From positions 2,542,001-2,606,000 of the forward strand of contig NZ_VFMU01000001.1 of NCBI RefSeq assembly GCF_006715225.1: a stretch of DNA of 64,000 nt, in the 5' to 3' direction. A program made the position numbers and the translations under genes. Shown here piece after piece: positions 2 through 9,202 of this stretch. Source of the DNA: Arthrobacter sp. SLBN-112. GTDB lineage: Bacteria > Actinomycetota > Actinomycetes > Actinomycetales > Micrococcaceae. The notes under the pieces were generated by a model that saw only the letters and a list, made by a program, of their open reading frames with translations, searched no databases and had not been told where the DNA came from. Position 1 is the first letter of the stretch; each line of letters starts with the position of its first letter.

Positions 2-1447
2 CTGGGAGTCATCGACGAGGACCGGGCCGATGAACACCCTGCTGGCGTCGTTGCGGATCTCCCGGTCGCGGGCCGCCTGGACCTGGACGCCACGATTGCC
101 CCGGACGGCATTATTGGCGTCGACGGGGAGAATCATTCGGACGGGGACATCCGTGCCGACGGGGAGATTGCCGGGGAAGCTGACGGGGAGCCGGAACTCC
201 CCGACGCAGGCGCAGATGCTGCTGTGGGCGGCGCCTCCGCCGGAATCGGTGCCGGTTCCGCAGGGGAGATGACCACATCCTACGACCACCTCTGGGACCG
301 CACGGTGATGCGGCACATCGAAGACGCTGCCGTGCGGGAGGACCCCGACGCCGATTCGGGCCACGTTTCGCGGCAGCAACCTCCCGCACTGCCCGCGGCC
401 GAACTGCTGCCCGCCCTCGGCGCTGCAGGGGAGCCTGCCCTCGAAGTTTCACCAGCCGGTCCAGGGACCGGGGCAGAAGCTGAAGGCGGTGGCCAGTCCG
501 GGCCTGCCGCCGGACCTGATGCCGGTCCCGGACCCGATGCCGGTTCCGGATTTGAGGCCAGCCCGAATGAAGGGCCTGCCGTGCCGCCCCGTCCCGCGTC
601 CACCGGCGTCCTCATTGATTCTGTCCCATGGCGCATTGGTGGAGCCACGCCGGCACCGGCCGCCCCGGCACCTGTTCCGCAGCCAACCTCCGACAACCCG
701 GCCGCGCCGCCCGCAGCCGCCGTTGCGGTTCCATCCACGCCGATGCCTGCTGCACCCGGCCTTGGCCCCGCCAGCCCGGCCCCCGGATCGATCCCGGCAT
801 CAGGACCCTTTCCAGCATCGGGATCCGGCGCCGGCCAGGAACACAGCGCCGGCCAGGAACACAGCACCGGGTTCGACGCCGCATTCGACCCCGACCACGA
901 TGGCCAGACGGTCATGAAGAGCAGCCTCCCGGGAACAGCATCCGGGCAGGCAACGAACGCACCGGCCGTTCAGCAGGACCGCGCCGGCCGCCCGCTGGTG
1001 CTGGCTCGCGTGTGTGCGCAGGGCCACGCCAATCCGCCCACCCATGCCCAATGCAGCGCCTGCGGGAGTGCCCTGTTGCCTGATGCCGTGCAGGTGGCCC
1101 GTCCCCGGCTGGGGCGGATGCGCCTGTCCACCGGCGAACTCCTGGATCTCGATCAGTCCATGGTGATCGGCCGGCAGCCGTCCGTGTCCCGGGTCCAGGG
1201 CGGCGTCATGCCGCGGCTGGTCCAGGTGGCAAGCCCCGGCGGGGACATCTCCAGGTCCCACCTGGAGGTCCGGCTCGAAGGCTGGCACGTGATGCTCTGC
1301 GACCTCAAGGCCACCAACGGCACGGTCCTGGTCCGTGAAGGGCAGCCGCCGCGGCGCCTGGCCCAGAACGAGATGGCCATCCTGCTCGACGGCGACATCG
1401 CGGAACTGGGCGACAACATCTCACTGCGTTTTGAGGAGATTCCTTGA
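2..1447 (+). CDS. FHA-domain protein with zinc ribbon (5' end cut off by window edge)
   Basis: The reading frame is open to the left edge, so the true start lies outside the window. The visible part is an acidic then Pro/Ala/Gly-rich low-complexity stretch, followed by a CxxGH...CxxCG zinc-ribbon-like motif near bases 1010-1065. The C-terminus (about 1120-1440) is an FHA domain with RSH and TNGT signatures, so it should bind phosphothreonine peptides. The stop overlaps the TTG start of the kinase by 4 bases, implying translational coupling and a shared pathway. The linker holds an 18-bp tandem duplication at 830-865 (AGQEHS twice). Its role as a phospho-reader or scaffold for the downstream kinase and secretion ATPase is inferred. 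Confidence 0.8.
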   Translation: MGVIDEDRADEHPAGVVADLPVAGRLDLDATIAPDGIIGVDGENHSDGDIRADGEIAGEADGEPELPDAGADAAVGGASAGIGAGSAGEMTTSYDHLWDRTVMRHIEDAAVREDPDADSGHVSRQQPPALPAAELLPALGAAGEPALEVSPAGPGTGAEAEGGGQSGPAAGPDAGPGPDAGSGFEASPNEGPAVPPRPASTGVLIDSVPWRIGGATPAPAAPAPVPQPTSDNPAAPPAAAVAVPSTPMPAAPGLGPASPAPGSIPASGPFPASGSGAGQEHSAGQEHSTGFDAAFDPDHDGQTVMKSSLPGTASGQATNAPAVQQDRAGRPLVLARVCAQGHANPPTHAQCSACGSALLPDAVQVARPRLGRMRLSTGELLDLDQSMVIGRQPSVSRVQGGVMPRLVQVASPGGDISRSHLEVRLEGWHVMLCDLKATNGTVLVREGQPPRRLAQNEMAILLDGDIAELGDNISLRFEEIP

Positions 1448-3246
1448 GTTCCAAACGGCCCGTTGCGCCGCCGCCCCGCATTTCAGGGTTCACCTATATC
1501 AGCCTGCTGGGCTCCGGCGGGTTCTCCGACGTCTACCTGTACGAACAGGACCGGCCGCGCCGTAAGGTCGCCGTCAAGGTGCTGCTCTCGGACCTCAAGA
1601 CCGAGGGCGCGCGGCGGCGTTTCGAGTCCGAAGCCAACCTCATGGCCCAGCTGTCCTCACACCCGTACATCGTCACCATTTTCGAAGCGGAAGTAACGGA
1701 CGACGGGCATTCCTACCTGGCCATGGAGTACTGCTCCCGGCCCAGCCTTGACGTGCGGTACCGGCGCCAGCGCTTCAGCGTGGACGAGGTCCTGGCCGTT
1801 GGCATCCAAGTGGCCTCCGCCGTCGAAACAGCCCACCGCGCCGGCATTGCCCACCGCGACATCAAGCCCGCCAACATCCTGGTCACCGACTACAACCGTC
1901 CGGCCCTCACCGACTTCGGCATCTCCGGCACCCTGGCAGGGGACTCAGACGACGATTCGGGCATGTCCATTCCCTGGTCCCCGCCGGAGCAGTTCCGCGA
2001 CGGCAGCGTTGACGGCGTCATGGTGGACGTGTGGGCCCTCGGCGCCACGCTCTACACCCTCCTGGCCGGACGCTCGCCGTTCGTGATGCCCGGCGCGGAC
2101 AACTCGCAGCGTGAACTGATCAACCGGATCAGCAACACGGCGCTGCCGCGGCTGGGCCGTGCCGATGTGCCGGAATCACTGGAACTGGCCCTGGCCACGG
2201 CCATGGCCAAAATGCCGCAGTCCCGGTACTCGTCGGCGCACGCCTTCGCGCTTGCCCTGCAGCGCATCCAGGCCGAGCTCAACCTTTCCGTCACTCCCTT
2301 CGAGGTCCTCGAGGAACCCCAGCAGGAGGAGAGCCACCCGGACGACGGCACCGAGGAGACGCGCGTCCGCAGCATTGCCGCCATCGACCCGGAGCGGACC
2401 GGCAGCGCACCCACGTTCCCGGCCCGTACGCGCCCCAACCCCGGCGGCGCCGGGACCGACGCAACGGGCCGCAGGGGAGGTGCCGTCCCGCCGTCGCACT
2501 TTGCCCCCGTCACGCCCGGCCAAGGCAAGCCGGCCCCGGCGGTGCCCTCCATTCCGGCCCGCACCACCTGGGCTGCAGCCACCGGAATGGCGTCCACCGG
2601 GGCAGCCGCTCCCGTTGCAGGCACGGACGACGGCGCCGGGCAGGGGGAGTGGTCCCACTCCACCGTCCTGCGCGGCAGCGCAGGGCCGGCCAACTACGGC
2701 GCGCCGGTAACGGACCCGGCGGGAGCTGCGCAGGATACGGGCCACGCCGCCGACGCAACAGTGCAGCGGGCCGTGAAGGTGGACGAGCCCGGGGAAACAC
2801 CGGAAGCAGACCACAGCAAGCGCAACCTCTGGCTCGCGCTCGCCGGCGGAACCCTCCTGGCACTGGCGGCGGTGGTGGGCATCGTGGTGGCGAACACGGC
2901 CACCGGCACCCCCAAGGTTGTGGAAACCCAGCAGGCCAGCAAACCCCCGGCCGACGCATTGGACAACGGCACCGTGCCCGACGTCGAAAGCCTCAAGGGC
3001 ACTATCGGCGGCGACGGGGAAGCCAGCTTCACGTGGACCAACCCGCAGCCCAAGGACGGGGACACCTACAAGTGGAAGGTGTACACCATCGGGGGCGGCG
3101 AAGGGGGATTCCAGGCCATCGCACAGCCGCCGGTCCGGGTCCGTCCCAACCCGACAGGGCAGACCTGCATCCAGGTGATGATCGTCCGGACCGACGGCGC
3201 ATTCTCACCGCTTGCGTCCGGCTCCATCGCGTGCACCGGCCAATGA
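1444..3246 (+). CDS. Membrane Ser/Thr protein kinase (PknB-like)
   Basis: A 600-residue Hanks-type kinase starting at TTG, overlapping the previous stop. Visible are the Gly-rich loop GSGGFSDVY, VAVK with catalytic Lys45, HRDIKPAN (Asp139) and DFG (157-159), so it looks active. A Pro/Ala/Thr-rich linker runs to about residue 455, then one membrane segment (about 462-485), then roughly 115 extracytoplasmic residues that look beta-rich and contain two cysteines. That outer domain is not PASTA; a fibronectin-III-like fold is possible but only inferred. It is flanked by FHA proteins, which are probably its substrates or readers. It likely senses an outside cue and phosphorylates components of the adjacent secretion-type ATPase. 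Confidence 0.9.
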   Translation: MSSKRPVAPPPRISGFTYISLLGSGGFSDVYLYEQDRPRRKVAVKVLLSDLKTEGARRRFESEANLMAQLSSHPYIVTIFEAEVTDDGHSYLAMEYCSRPSLDVRYRRQRFSVDEVLAVGIQVASAVETAHRAGIAHRDIKPANILVTDYNRPALTDFGISGTLAGDSDDDSGMSIPWSPPEQFRDGSVDGVMVDVWALGATLYTLLAGRSPFVMPGADNSQRELINRISNTALPRLGRADVPESLELALATAMAKMPQSRYSSAHAFALALQRIQAELNLSVTPFEVLEEPQQEESHPDDGTEETRVRSIAAIDPERTGSAPTFPARTRPNPGGAGTDATGRRGGAVPPSHFAPVTPGQGKPAPAVPSIPARTTWAAATGMASTGAAAPVAGTDDGAGQGEWSHSTVLRGSAGPANYGAPVTDPAGAAQDTGHAADATVQRAVKVDEPGETPEADHSKRNLWLALAGGTLLALAAVVGIVVANTATGTPKVVETQQASKPPADALDNGTVPDVESLKGTIGGDGEASFTWTNPQPKDGDTYKWKVYTIGGGEGGFQAIAQPPVRVRPNPTGQTCIQVMIVRTDGAFSPLASGSIACTGQ

Positions 3247-3331
3247 AATTGCTGCCCGGCCGGCCGCCGCTATTACGGCATGACCAGCACTCCGACCACC
3301 GCAACAGTTCTGCCTTGAGGAGGCACAGATC

Positions 3332-8487: not shown

Positions 8488-8530
8488 GACCGGACGGCCG
8501 CTCCTGCGGCGGATTTGCGGCCGTCCGGTC
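8488..8530 (+). terminator. 14-bp perfect hairpin after the ATPase gene
   Basis: A perfect inverted repeat, arms 8488-8501 and 8517-8530 with a 15-nt loop, lies 9 bases after the stop codon. There is no T-run, so it would act as an actinobacterial-type terminator or mRNA stabiliser. Confidence 0.6.
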
Positions 8531-8599
8531 GAGTGTAGAAGACTGCTGCGGAACCAGAAGGCCGCGGACGGGGGGATCCGTGGGCGTCGAAAGGTAACC

Positions 8600-9202
8600 G
8601 TGACCCCCTCCACCCCGCTCTTCCGCGCTGTGCCCGCCGCCGCCTCCGCGGCGCTCCTGGCACTCACCATGGGCCTGTCCGCCCCTATGCCGGCGTTGGC
8701 TGATTCTCCTGAGCCGTCGCCGGCCACCACTGCGGCACCCGGCCCGGATCCCTCGGCAGACAAGACATCGAACGGACGGCCGGGCAAGCCCGGTGAACCA
8801 CCGGGACAGGGCGGCACACTTGTCCAGCCGACGGCCCAACCGGCGCCTTCCACCCAAAGGCCCGTCCAGCCTGTCCAGCCCCAGCCACCCAGGACAGGCA
8901 CTCCTGCCCCGGCCGCGCCGCCCGCCACGGCAGCGGAGGTCCCGGCGGGAGCCGCCACCGAAAACCCCTCAGCCGCTGCCGGCTACCGTCCGCCCACAGG
9001 CCCCTCCAGTGGTGTGGACTGGAACAGCCCCGTCACCCGGACTACCGGACCTGCCCGGATGGCTGCCGCTGCCCCTGCCCGTGGCCAGGGTCCCGGCGGC
9101 CCCGCGCCCCTGCCCATTGCCCTTGGCACGCTGCTGGTGGGGGTTTCCGCCGGTGCCTTCGCATGGTGGAACCGAAACCGGAACCGGTTCCGCGCGCACT
9201 GA
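8600..9202 (+). CDS. Secreted/membrane-anchored Pro-rich protein
   Basis: 200 residues from GTG 8600, which has GAAAGG 6-12 bases upstream. Starting further up the same open frame would run back through the ATPase gene, so it is rejected. The N-terminus is a signal peptide with a likely cut after ALA in PMPALA-D. The middle is Pro/Ala/Gly-rich and disordered. A C-terminal hydrophobic segment ([19 protein letters not shown]) followed by Arg/Asn-rich residues would anchor it in the membrane with a short cytoplasmic tail. It follows the secretion-type ATPase after a hairpin, so it may belong to that locus, but nothing in the sequence gives a function. Confidence 0.65.

Follow-up and report, generated by a model that had tools for sequence, protein, structure and literature searches.

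A likely type VII secretion locus in Arthrobacter sp. SLBN-112 with kinase, phosphatase and FHA proteins beside an EssC-type ATPase

The gene run

The genome of Arthrobacter sp. SLBN-112 (G000; one contig, 4.40 Mb) contains a long gene run that includes the gene of an EssC/EccC-type secretion ATPase. The run lies partly in the 64,000-nucleotide stretch G000:C1:2542001-2606000, here called the window, and partly in a 20-kb stretch taken to the left of it (L008), beyond whose left end it continues. From left to right it encodes two giant Big_9/fn3 proteins, a MoxR protein, a DUF58 protein, a TgpA-type transglutaminase, an RDD-FHA protein, a PP2C phosphatase, an FHA protein, a membrane Ser/Thr kinase, a 234-residue protein and the ATPase, which reaches 96% identity to its nearest named records from Arthrobacter and Pseudarthrobacter. 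That the locus belongs to a secretion system is very probable. The four genes from the FHA protein to the ATPase, on which an earlier description of the sequence (the original prediction) was based, are real, as are two 4-base overlaps between them, at 1444-1447 and 4033-4036. All features located below by window coordinates are on the plus strand.

The FHA protein enters the window with its C-terminal two thirds (2..1447); its open reading frame extends to as many as 733 residues, with a start that may lie as far as 755 bases before the first base of the window. The FHA domain is at the C-terminus after a long linker (Pfam FHA, 22.8 bits) and the pattern GR...SxxH...NG is found in all 78 orthologues. 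The RDD-FHA protein, encoded left of the window, retains GR, SxxH and NG in 72 of 73 cases. The kinase (1444..3246) has 600 residues counted from the first possible start (Pfam Pkinase, 7e-41), with a single transmembrane helix at residues 461-489 and an outer domain of about 110 residues, as predicted by hydropathy. It had been described as active-looking, and its catalytic motifs are indeed intact in 78 of 78 orthologues. The activation segment ends with MSIPWSPPE, lacking the GT before PE that is usual in PknB-type kinases.

The 234-residue protein (3332..4036) is predicted by an AlphaFold2 model to consist of a non-canonical FHA fold (residues 1-108) and a mostly helical C-terminal half. 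The model matches FHA domains in Foldseek and in VIA, whose rows cover residues 1-108 in bulk. A role as a canonical phosphothreonine reader was rejected, as S[RK]xH occurs in none of 79 orthologues; with an FHA fold devoid of the Ser and His contacts, the protein is probably not a phosphothreonine reader of the usual kind. The proposal that each of the three nearest neighbours of the kinase contains an FHA domain therefore holds for the FHA protein and the ATPase, which keep the contacts, and for the 234-residue protein with respect to the fold. Absence of the Arg, Ser and His contacts had been named beforehand as evidence that would speak against the original prediction; they are kept in the ATPase, the FHA protein and the RDD-FHA protein. 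The C-terminal half may be helix-turn-helix-like; of 32 members, 2 match one helix-turn-helix family of Pfam and 1 matches another, all weakly (best E 0.04). A PDB sequence search with the profile of the 234-residue protein returned nothing credible (best E 0.14).

The secretion ATPase

The ATPase (4033..8478; 1481 residues) scores 541.7 bits with the EssC model TIGR03928, under the equivalog cut-off of 778.4, and 342.1 bits with EccCa, under the cut-off of 509; the EccCb domain model also matches, below its cut-off. Matches in the PDB include 4nh0 (deposited as Cell division FtsK/SpoIIIE), YukB and EccC5. Together, these models and structures bear out the EssC-like identity suggested earlier. 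The FHA domain of the ATPase (residues 104-198; 4342..4626) has intact phosphothreonine contacts, retained in 79 of 80 named loci. The matches listed for the ATPase in Foldseek and VIA are FHA domains, and those of VIA cover residues 101-201 in bulk. In the first FtsK-type ATPase domain (6025..6747, limits approximate) Walker A (GTTGAGKS) and Walker B (IIVDE) are intact. The second has GTGGSGKS but LVDG, and in the last domain Lys is replaced by Arg (GPPGAGRT).

The N-terminal domain of the ATPase (residues 1-90; 4033..4302) is modelled with strands at residues 2-7, 15-20, 50-57, 63-67 and 84-90 and a helix at 27-37. This beta-grasp-like order points to a possible fused YukD-like domain. Of 26 members, one matches the Pfam YukD model (E 0.0062), hhalign gave no significant similarity to four YukD domains from other genomes (probability 0.8%, E 0.066), and G000 contains no YukD match anywhere.

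When 149 genomes of the order were searched with the ATPase, 148 gave some match at E<=0.001. Forty genomes have a match above 900 bits, after which the next score falls to 589 bits; these are the 40 order genomes referred to below. In a tree of 59 ATPases, arbitrarily rooted and with no named type VII secretion system (T7SS) reference inside, the 31 included of the 40 form one clade (support 0.97). It is separate from the clade that contains the ATPase of genome G134, whose gene order is that of T7SSd and to which identity is 33%. A second EssC-like ATPase of G000 (1379 residues; G000:C1:3917598-3921737, L012 8598-12737) also has FHA and FtsK domains. Its gene adjoins genes that resemble, by eye and without a family search, those of a glycosyltransferase and UDP-galactopyranose mutase; the 19.9-kb stretch L012 contains no WXG100 or partner-like gene beside it.

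WXG100 proteins at the locus and elsewhere in the genome

To score adjacency, WXG100 genes up to about 8 kb from the ATPase were sought with a home-made hidden Markov model (HMM) seeded from Pfam WXG100 matches, at a threshold of at least 15 bits. By this measure a WXG100 gene lies close to the orthologous ATPase in 32 of the 40 order genomes, one of which (G070) scores weakly at 20 bits. None was found near the ATPase in six (G000, G005, G023, G081, G063 and G133), and in two (G122 and G135) contig ends prevent an assessment. A WXG100 gene is present at 32 of the 80 named loci, and in seven the flank of less than 1.5 kb is too short for scoring. Within the Arthrobacter group it is retained at the locus in A. 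oryzae CC159, A. sp. S39, SPG23 and EPSL27 and in P. sulfonivorans; in Pseudarthrobacter HLT1-5 it aligns in part only. Locus L209, with an Arthrobacter-type ATPase and kinase run, is from a record labelled Sporosarcina beigongshangi REN13, a Bacillota label that probably reflects contamination or mislabelling.

The original prediction had left the decision to the left neighbourhood, which does not decide: in relatives, the WXG100 genes sit mostly to the right of the ATPase. The search on the left that it proposed did reveal, in 20 kb, the PP2C gene in the same run, and no WXG100 gene in the genus of the window and no recognisable EccD- or EsaA-like gene. Most relatives that lie outside the Arthrobacter group carry WXG100 genes beside this ATPase. 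L104 (G062), L090 (G011) and L092 (G100) each have several consecutive WXG100-like genes immediately downstream of the ATPase, and equal-scoring pairs in L104 and L090 resemble recent copies. In many relatives the best-scoring WXG100 gene is far from the ATPase or on another contig.

G000 has an orphan WXG100 gene at 1019312, about 1.5 Mb from the locus, with neighbours unrelated to the run. The protein of 87 residues, counted from the second possible start, has counterparts in G005, G023 and G081. It shares 63 of 87 residues with the ATPase-adjacent protein of Arthrobacter oryzae and 60 of 87 with the one from P. sulfonivorans. All four orphans fall among the ATPase-adjacent proteins of the Arthrobacter group. 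Another WXG100 protein of G000 (G000:C1:1941198-1941452, L001; 95 residues, 65 bits), encoded beside a histidine-kinase-like gene, is of a different subfamily and shares 21 of 87 residues with the orphan. Moreover, four longer proteins scattered in G000 (L122 5649-7433, L123 6019-7512, L124 4609-6189, L125 6115-7086) start with a WXG-like domain that matches PF06013 or PF25547 below the Pfam cut-off and reaches 37-53 bits in the home-made HMM. Peptidase_C2 (37.8 bits) is found in one of them and DUF2515 (26.4 bits) in another, and the others have nothing above cut-off. The four WXG-headed proteins are candidate substrates, to judge from their sequences. In L122, L124 and L125 a small gene without a Pfam match closely trails the WXG-headed gene; these may be effector-partner pairs. 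Since WXG100 genes adjoin the ATPase in relatives and G000 keeps a related orphan as well as WXG-headed proteins, the locus most likely represents a type VII secretion system from which the WXG100 gene has moved away.

A threonine motif shared by the kinase, the phosphatase and the FHA protein

The sequence acidic-x-T-x-x-Arg is repeated in the linker of the kinase (EETRVR), the tail of the phosphatase (DEVTLPR) and the linker of the FHA protein (WDRTVMR). Codons of putative phospho-Thr residues are at 302 (WDRTVMR) and 908 (DGQTVMK) in the FHA-protein linker, and at 2359 (EETRVR), 2662 (HSTVLR) and 2758 (DATVQR) in the kinase linker. FHA domains select by the +3 residue. As a positional control, Arg/Lys was tallied at +1 to +7 of acid-preceded Thr across 18 representatives, each from a different genus or a distant species. 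In the kinase, 69 of 197 sites have Arg/Lys at +3, compared with 5-29 at the other positions; the corresponding values are 30 of 150 versus 4-23 for PP2C and 27 of 234 versus 5-20 for the FHA protein. There is no such peak in the transglutaminase, the DUF58 protein or the 234-residue protein of these representatives. At least one full motif is present in 18/18 kinases, 15/18 PP2C phosphatases, 14/18 FHA proteins and 6/18 RDD-FHA proteins. Among the named loci, whose sequences are related, the motif occurs in 79/79 kinases, 72/76 PP2C phosphatases, 66/78 FHA proteins and 55/76 RDD-FHA proteins, and, for comparison, in 2/64 DUF58 proteins, 18/75 transglutaminases and 7/79 of the 234-residue proteins. 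In G000, six motifs fall within the 2187 residues of the four proteins and nine within the 15635 residues of 40 other window genes. A motif common to the kinase, the phosphatase and the FHA protein was met in no paper within the literature searched, outside which most subscription papers lie.

Neighbouring genes

The giant proteins, both with Big_9 and fn3 domains by Pfam, are encoded at L008 2-5446 (at least 1814 residues, clipped by the end of the stretch) and 5594-11716 (2040 residues, complete). They share long near-identical stretches in tandem, apparently as the result of a recent duplication; the stretches from relatives contain a single copy, though most of them start inside it. Simple hydropathy predicts an N-terminal transmembrane segment at residues 16-41, in the complete protein only, and no hydrophobic stretch near the C-terminus of either. 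The proteins encoded next, all left of the window and assigned by Pfam, are the MoxR-type AAA protein (323 residues), the DUF58 protein (496), the transglutaminase (TGM; TgpA_N and transglutaminase core, 857), the RDD-FHA protein (zinc ribbon, RDD and FHA, 538; FHA 17.4 bits, below the cut-off of 20.7) and the PP2C phosphatase (316). Of the 35 clade genomes with an examined upstream stretch, 23 have the MoxR, DUF58 and TGM genes grouped upstream of the ATPase; two of the other 12 (G058 and G128) have short flanks. To the right of the ATPase, a gene at 8600..9202, with a GTG start and AAAGG upstream, encodes a 200-residue protein with a signal-peptide-like start, a Pro-rich stretch, a C-terminal transmembrane helix and a short tail, by hydropathy. 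Similar proteins were detected in close relatives only among the 80 named loci. The following gene is presumably that of a DNA ligase (ligA), as recognised from the sequence without a family search. Two tandem tRNA-Asn genes (GTT) are located farther along the window, at 57229-57302 and 57426-57499.

Proposed mechanism and alternatives

We favour, with moderate confidence, a model of a type VII system in which both the motor in the inner membrane and the module that controls it are products of the locus, with export gated by the kinase and the phosphatase. The kinase would sense the envelope with its outer domain and phosphorylate Thr in acidic-T-x-x-R motifs of three regions, namely its own linker, the tail of the phosphatase and the linker of the FHA protein. 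FHA domains, including that of the motor, would bind the phosphorylated sites, by which the motor would be assembled or activated, and PP2C would reset the switch. The motor would export WXG100 and the WXG-headed effectors, while the MoxR/DUF58/transglutaminase group and the giant surface proteins might prepare the cell wall or form a route across it. By analogy with EspM, the 234-residue FHA-fold protein may feed the secretion status back to transcription. Of the phosphorylation-gated secretion system originally predicted, the secretion part is well supported by the WXG100 genes next to the ATPase of relatives, the displaced orthologue, the WXG-headed proteins and the PP2C gene. Gating is plausible from the intact kinase, the phosphatase, the intact FHA domain of the motor and the shared motif, and on these sequence features the chances for and against a phospho-switch of secretion appear evenly balanced.

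A number of observations weigh against this model. WXG100 is missing near the ATPase in all four genomes of the window's genus (G000, G005, G023, G081) and at 41 of the 80 named loci, all labelled Arthrobacter, Pseudarthrobacter or Paenarthrobacter. Pfam WXG100 matches occur anywhere in the genome in 38 of the 40 order genomes at E<=0.05, and in 35 above the family cut-off; as 41 of 41 searched order genomes outside the 40 also have WXG100 above the cut-off, its presence is no mark of the clade and only adjacency counts. The adjacency values, in turn, are raw counts without a shuffled-position control. No homologue of EccB/EccD, EssA/EssB or EsaA was recognised among the Pfam-scanned genes of the run, which leaves the membrane channel unaccounted for. 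In the 234-residue protein, Leu-His-Arg replaces Ser-x-x-His in 79 of 79 orthologues. The T-x-x-R motif was picked after these sequences had been viewed and was then tested on orthologues that are not independent; singly, the four proteins of G000 exceed shuffled sequence only weakly (p 0.02 to 0.22), and the RDD-FHA proteins of the 18 representatives show no +3 peak (7 of 115, compared with 27 of 115 at +1). Finally, the orphan WXG100 could instead be a client of the other EssC-like ATPase with an FHA domain (L012).

If the latter were the case, the ATPase at 3919 kb would export the orphan and the effector-like proteins, and the window locus would be a relic. We regard this as very improbable. 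The second ATPase does share the combination of FHA and FtsK domains, and its 19.9-kb stretch offers no partner-like neighbour; the genes of the run are open in G000 and are recognised from Pseudarthrobacter to Brachybacterium, and the orphan is closest to proteins that adjoin the ATPase of the run. Less remote, and still improbable, is a cluster for envelope-stress signalling, similar to the PFNA operon of Bifidobacterium, whose ATPase acts in the window's genus on something other than WXG100 proteins. The loss of WXG100 from the locus in this genus would fit, as would the occurrence of the PFNA set without an adjacent EssC, both in the stretches examined from a family (f4) that is presumably the Bifidobacteriaceae and in Bifidobacterium as described (PMC8430577). 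The EssC orthology across a clade with adjoining WXG100 genes argues against it, as do the WXG100 genes still at the locus in some Arthrobacter and Pseudarthrobacter and the WXG-headed effector-like proteins that persist in the genome.

Within a type VII system, the FHA contacts might instead serve as a constitutive scaffold that holds the complex together, always phosphorylated or phosphorylated by other kinases, so that the kinase of the run is no switch. There is precedent in the EssC FHA domain of Staphylococcus aureus and Bacillus subtilis, which has no phosphothreonine site and binds the pseudokinase EssB, presumably without phosphorylation (PMC11217815). Among seven genomes of f12 and f18 whose flanks were examined and whose ATPase is close to WXG100, six (G029, G044, G051, G065, G079, G115) have no recognised kinase or PP2C in the stretches taken; G093 has a kinase. 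The conserved phosphate contacts, the kinase active site intact in 78 of 78 orthologues and the phosphatase gene alongside render scaffolding unlikely, and kinase/phosphatase-gated export remains our preferred model.

Comparison with known type VII systems and the PFNA operon

The best-known type VII systems are those of mycobacteria, staphylococci and Bacillus. Control of T7SSd and T7SSe by threonine phosphorylation has already been suggested (Garrett, Higginson and Palmer 2024, PMC11217815). Like these systems, the locus, or its counterpart in relatives, combines an FHA-bearing EssC-type ATPase with a conserved phosphothreonine site, a membrane Ser/Thr kinase, a giant Ig-like protein, a small protein with a single predicted transmembrane helix and WXG100, and with T7SSe it also shares a PPM phosphatase and an FHA protein. 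It differs by the additional MoxR, DUF58, transglutaminase and RDD-FHA genes and by the absence of WXG100 from the locus in the window's genus. In T7SSd the FHA domain of the ATPase has a phosphothreonine site, here retained in 79 of 80 loci, and the membrane Ser/Thr kinase TsdD has its equivalent in the run. The giant Ig-like TsdI, with a signal peptide and a C-terminal transmembrane helix, does not: the giant proteins of the run have no predicted C-terminal helix. TsdH, small and with a single transmembrane helix, resembles the 200-residue protein, with its signal-like start and one C-terminal helix, in a comparison by layout only. T7SSd lacks a ubiquitin-like protein; G000 has no YukD match, yet residues 1-90 of the ATPase are beta-grasp-like. 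The gene order in G134 (WXG100, kinase, 147 residues, 1797 residues, ATPase) is the published T7SSd order, and it is through G134 rather than a named TsdC that the ATPase clade is set apart from T7SSd. The words Arthrobacter, Micrococc, MoxR, DUF58 and transglutaminase do not occur in the main text of PMC11217815, whose supplementary data may contain entries from the Arthrobacter group. No paper that combines Pseudarthrobacter with type VII secretion was found, with the same limit regarding subscription papers, and type VII secretion and WXG100 go unmentioned among the matches listed for the literature on the actinobacterial gene set.

With T7SSb of S. aureus and B. subtilis the locus shares an FHA-bearing ATPase and a kinase-fold membrane partner; in T7SSb the FHA domain of EssC has no phosphothreonine site and EssB is a pseudokinase (PMC11217815), whereas both look active here. 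With T7SSa/ESX it shares the ATPase domains (the EccC5 match), but EccC is without the FHA domain (PMC11217815) present in the ATPase described here. No EccB, EccD or MycP is among the Pfam-scanned genes of the run; EccB and mycosin were not searched for genome-wide, and YukD, a domain of EccD, is absent from G000. EspM, a transcription factor described in papers that refer to an FHA domain, is a possible analogue of the 234-residue protein. As the kinase, the phosphatase, the readers and the FHA-bearing motor are encoded in a single run, phospho-switching of a type VII system could be examined directly by removal of genes in the Arthrobacter group.

The PFNA operon of Bifidobacterium contains pkb2, fn3, aaa-atp, duf58 and tgm, to which some species add prpC, a gene of unknown function and fha (PMC8430577). 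It was proposed to be an immune-communication cluster and, for gut bifidobacteria, is discussed in connection with the recognition of host signals. The run of G000 contains every named kind of gene (kinase, fn3, MoxR, DUF58, transglutaminase, PP2C and FHA), with the five of the core set in one run and the kinase placed after the fn3 gene instead of before it. The published operon is without a secretion ATPase, and neither "secretion" nor "FtsK" occurs in PMC8430577 or PMC6803598; no EssC-type ATPase adjoins the PFNA set in the f4 stretches taken. Six f4 genomes have kinase, fn3, MoxR, DUF58 and TGM in PFNA order (MoxR was not recognised in G148, and the set of G134 spans two stretches), and in two, G035 and G120, PP2C and an unknown gene come next, and FHA is matched weakly on the opposite strand. 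The PFNA kinase of G134 is about 13 kb from genes of the T7SSd type. In G009 and G085, kinase, fn3, MoxR, DUF58, TGM and PP2C follow in order and then the ATPase. A match between PFNA and type VII secretion was met in no paper of the literature searched, and the locus looks like the union of two gene clusters so far described separately, a type VII machine and a PFNA-like set. Tentatively, PFNA might be one half of a type VII system, the half for control and the cell wall, parted from its motor, the two halves still forming one locus in Micrococcales, where the kinase would write an acidic-T-x-x-R phosphothreonine code on itself, the phosphatase and the FHA protein, and the FHA domain of the motor would read it to switch export. 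The locus thereby offers the PFNA operon of Bifidobacterium a possible origin in protein secretion.

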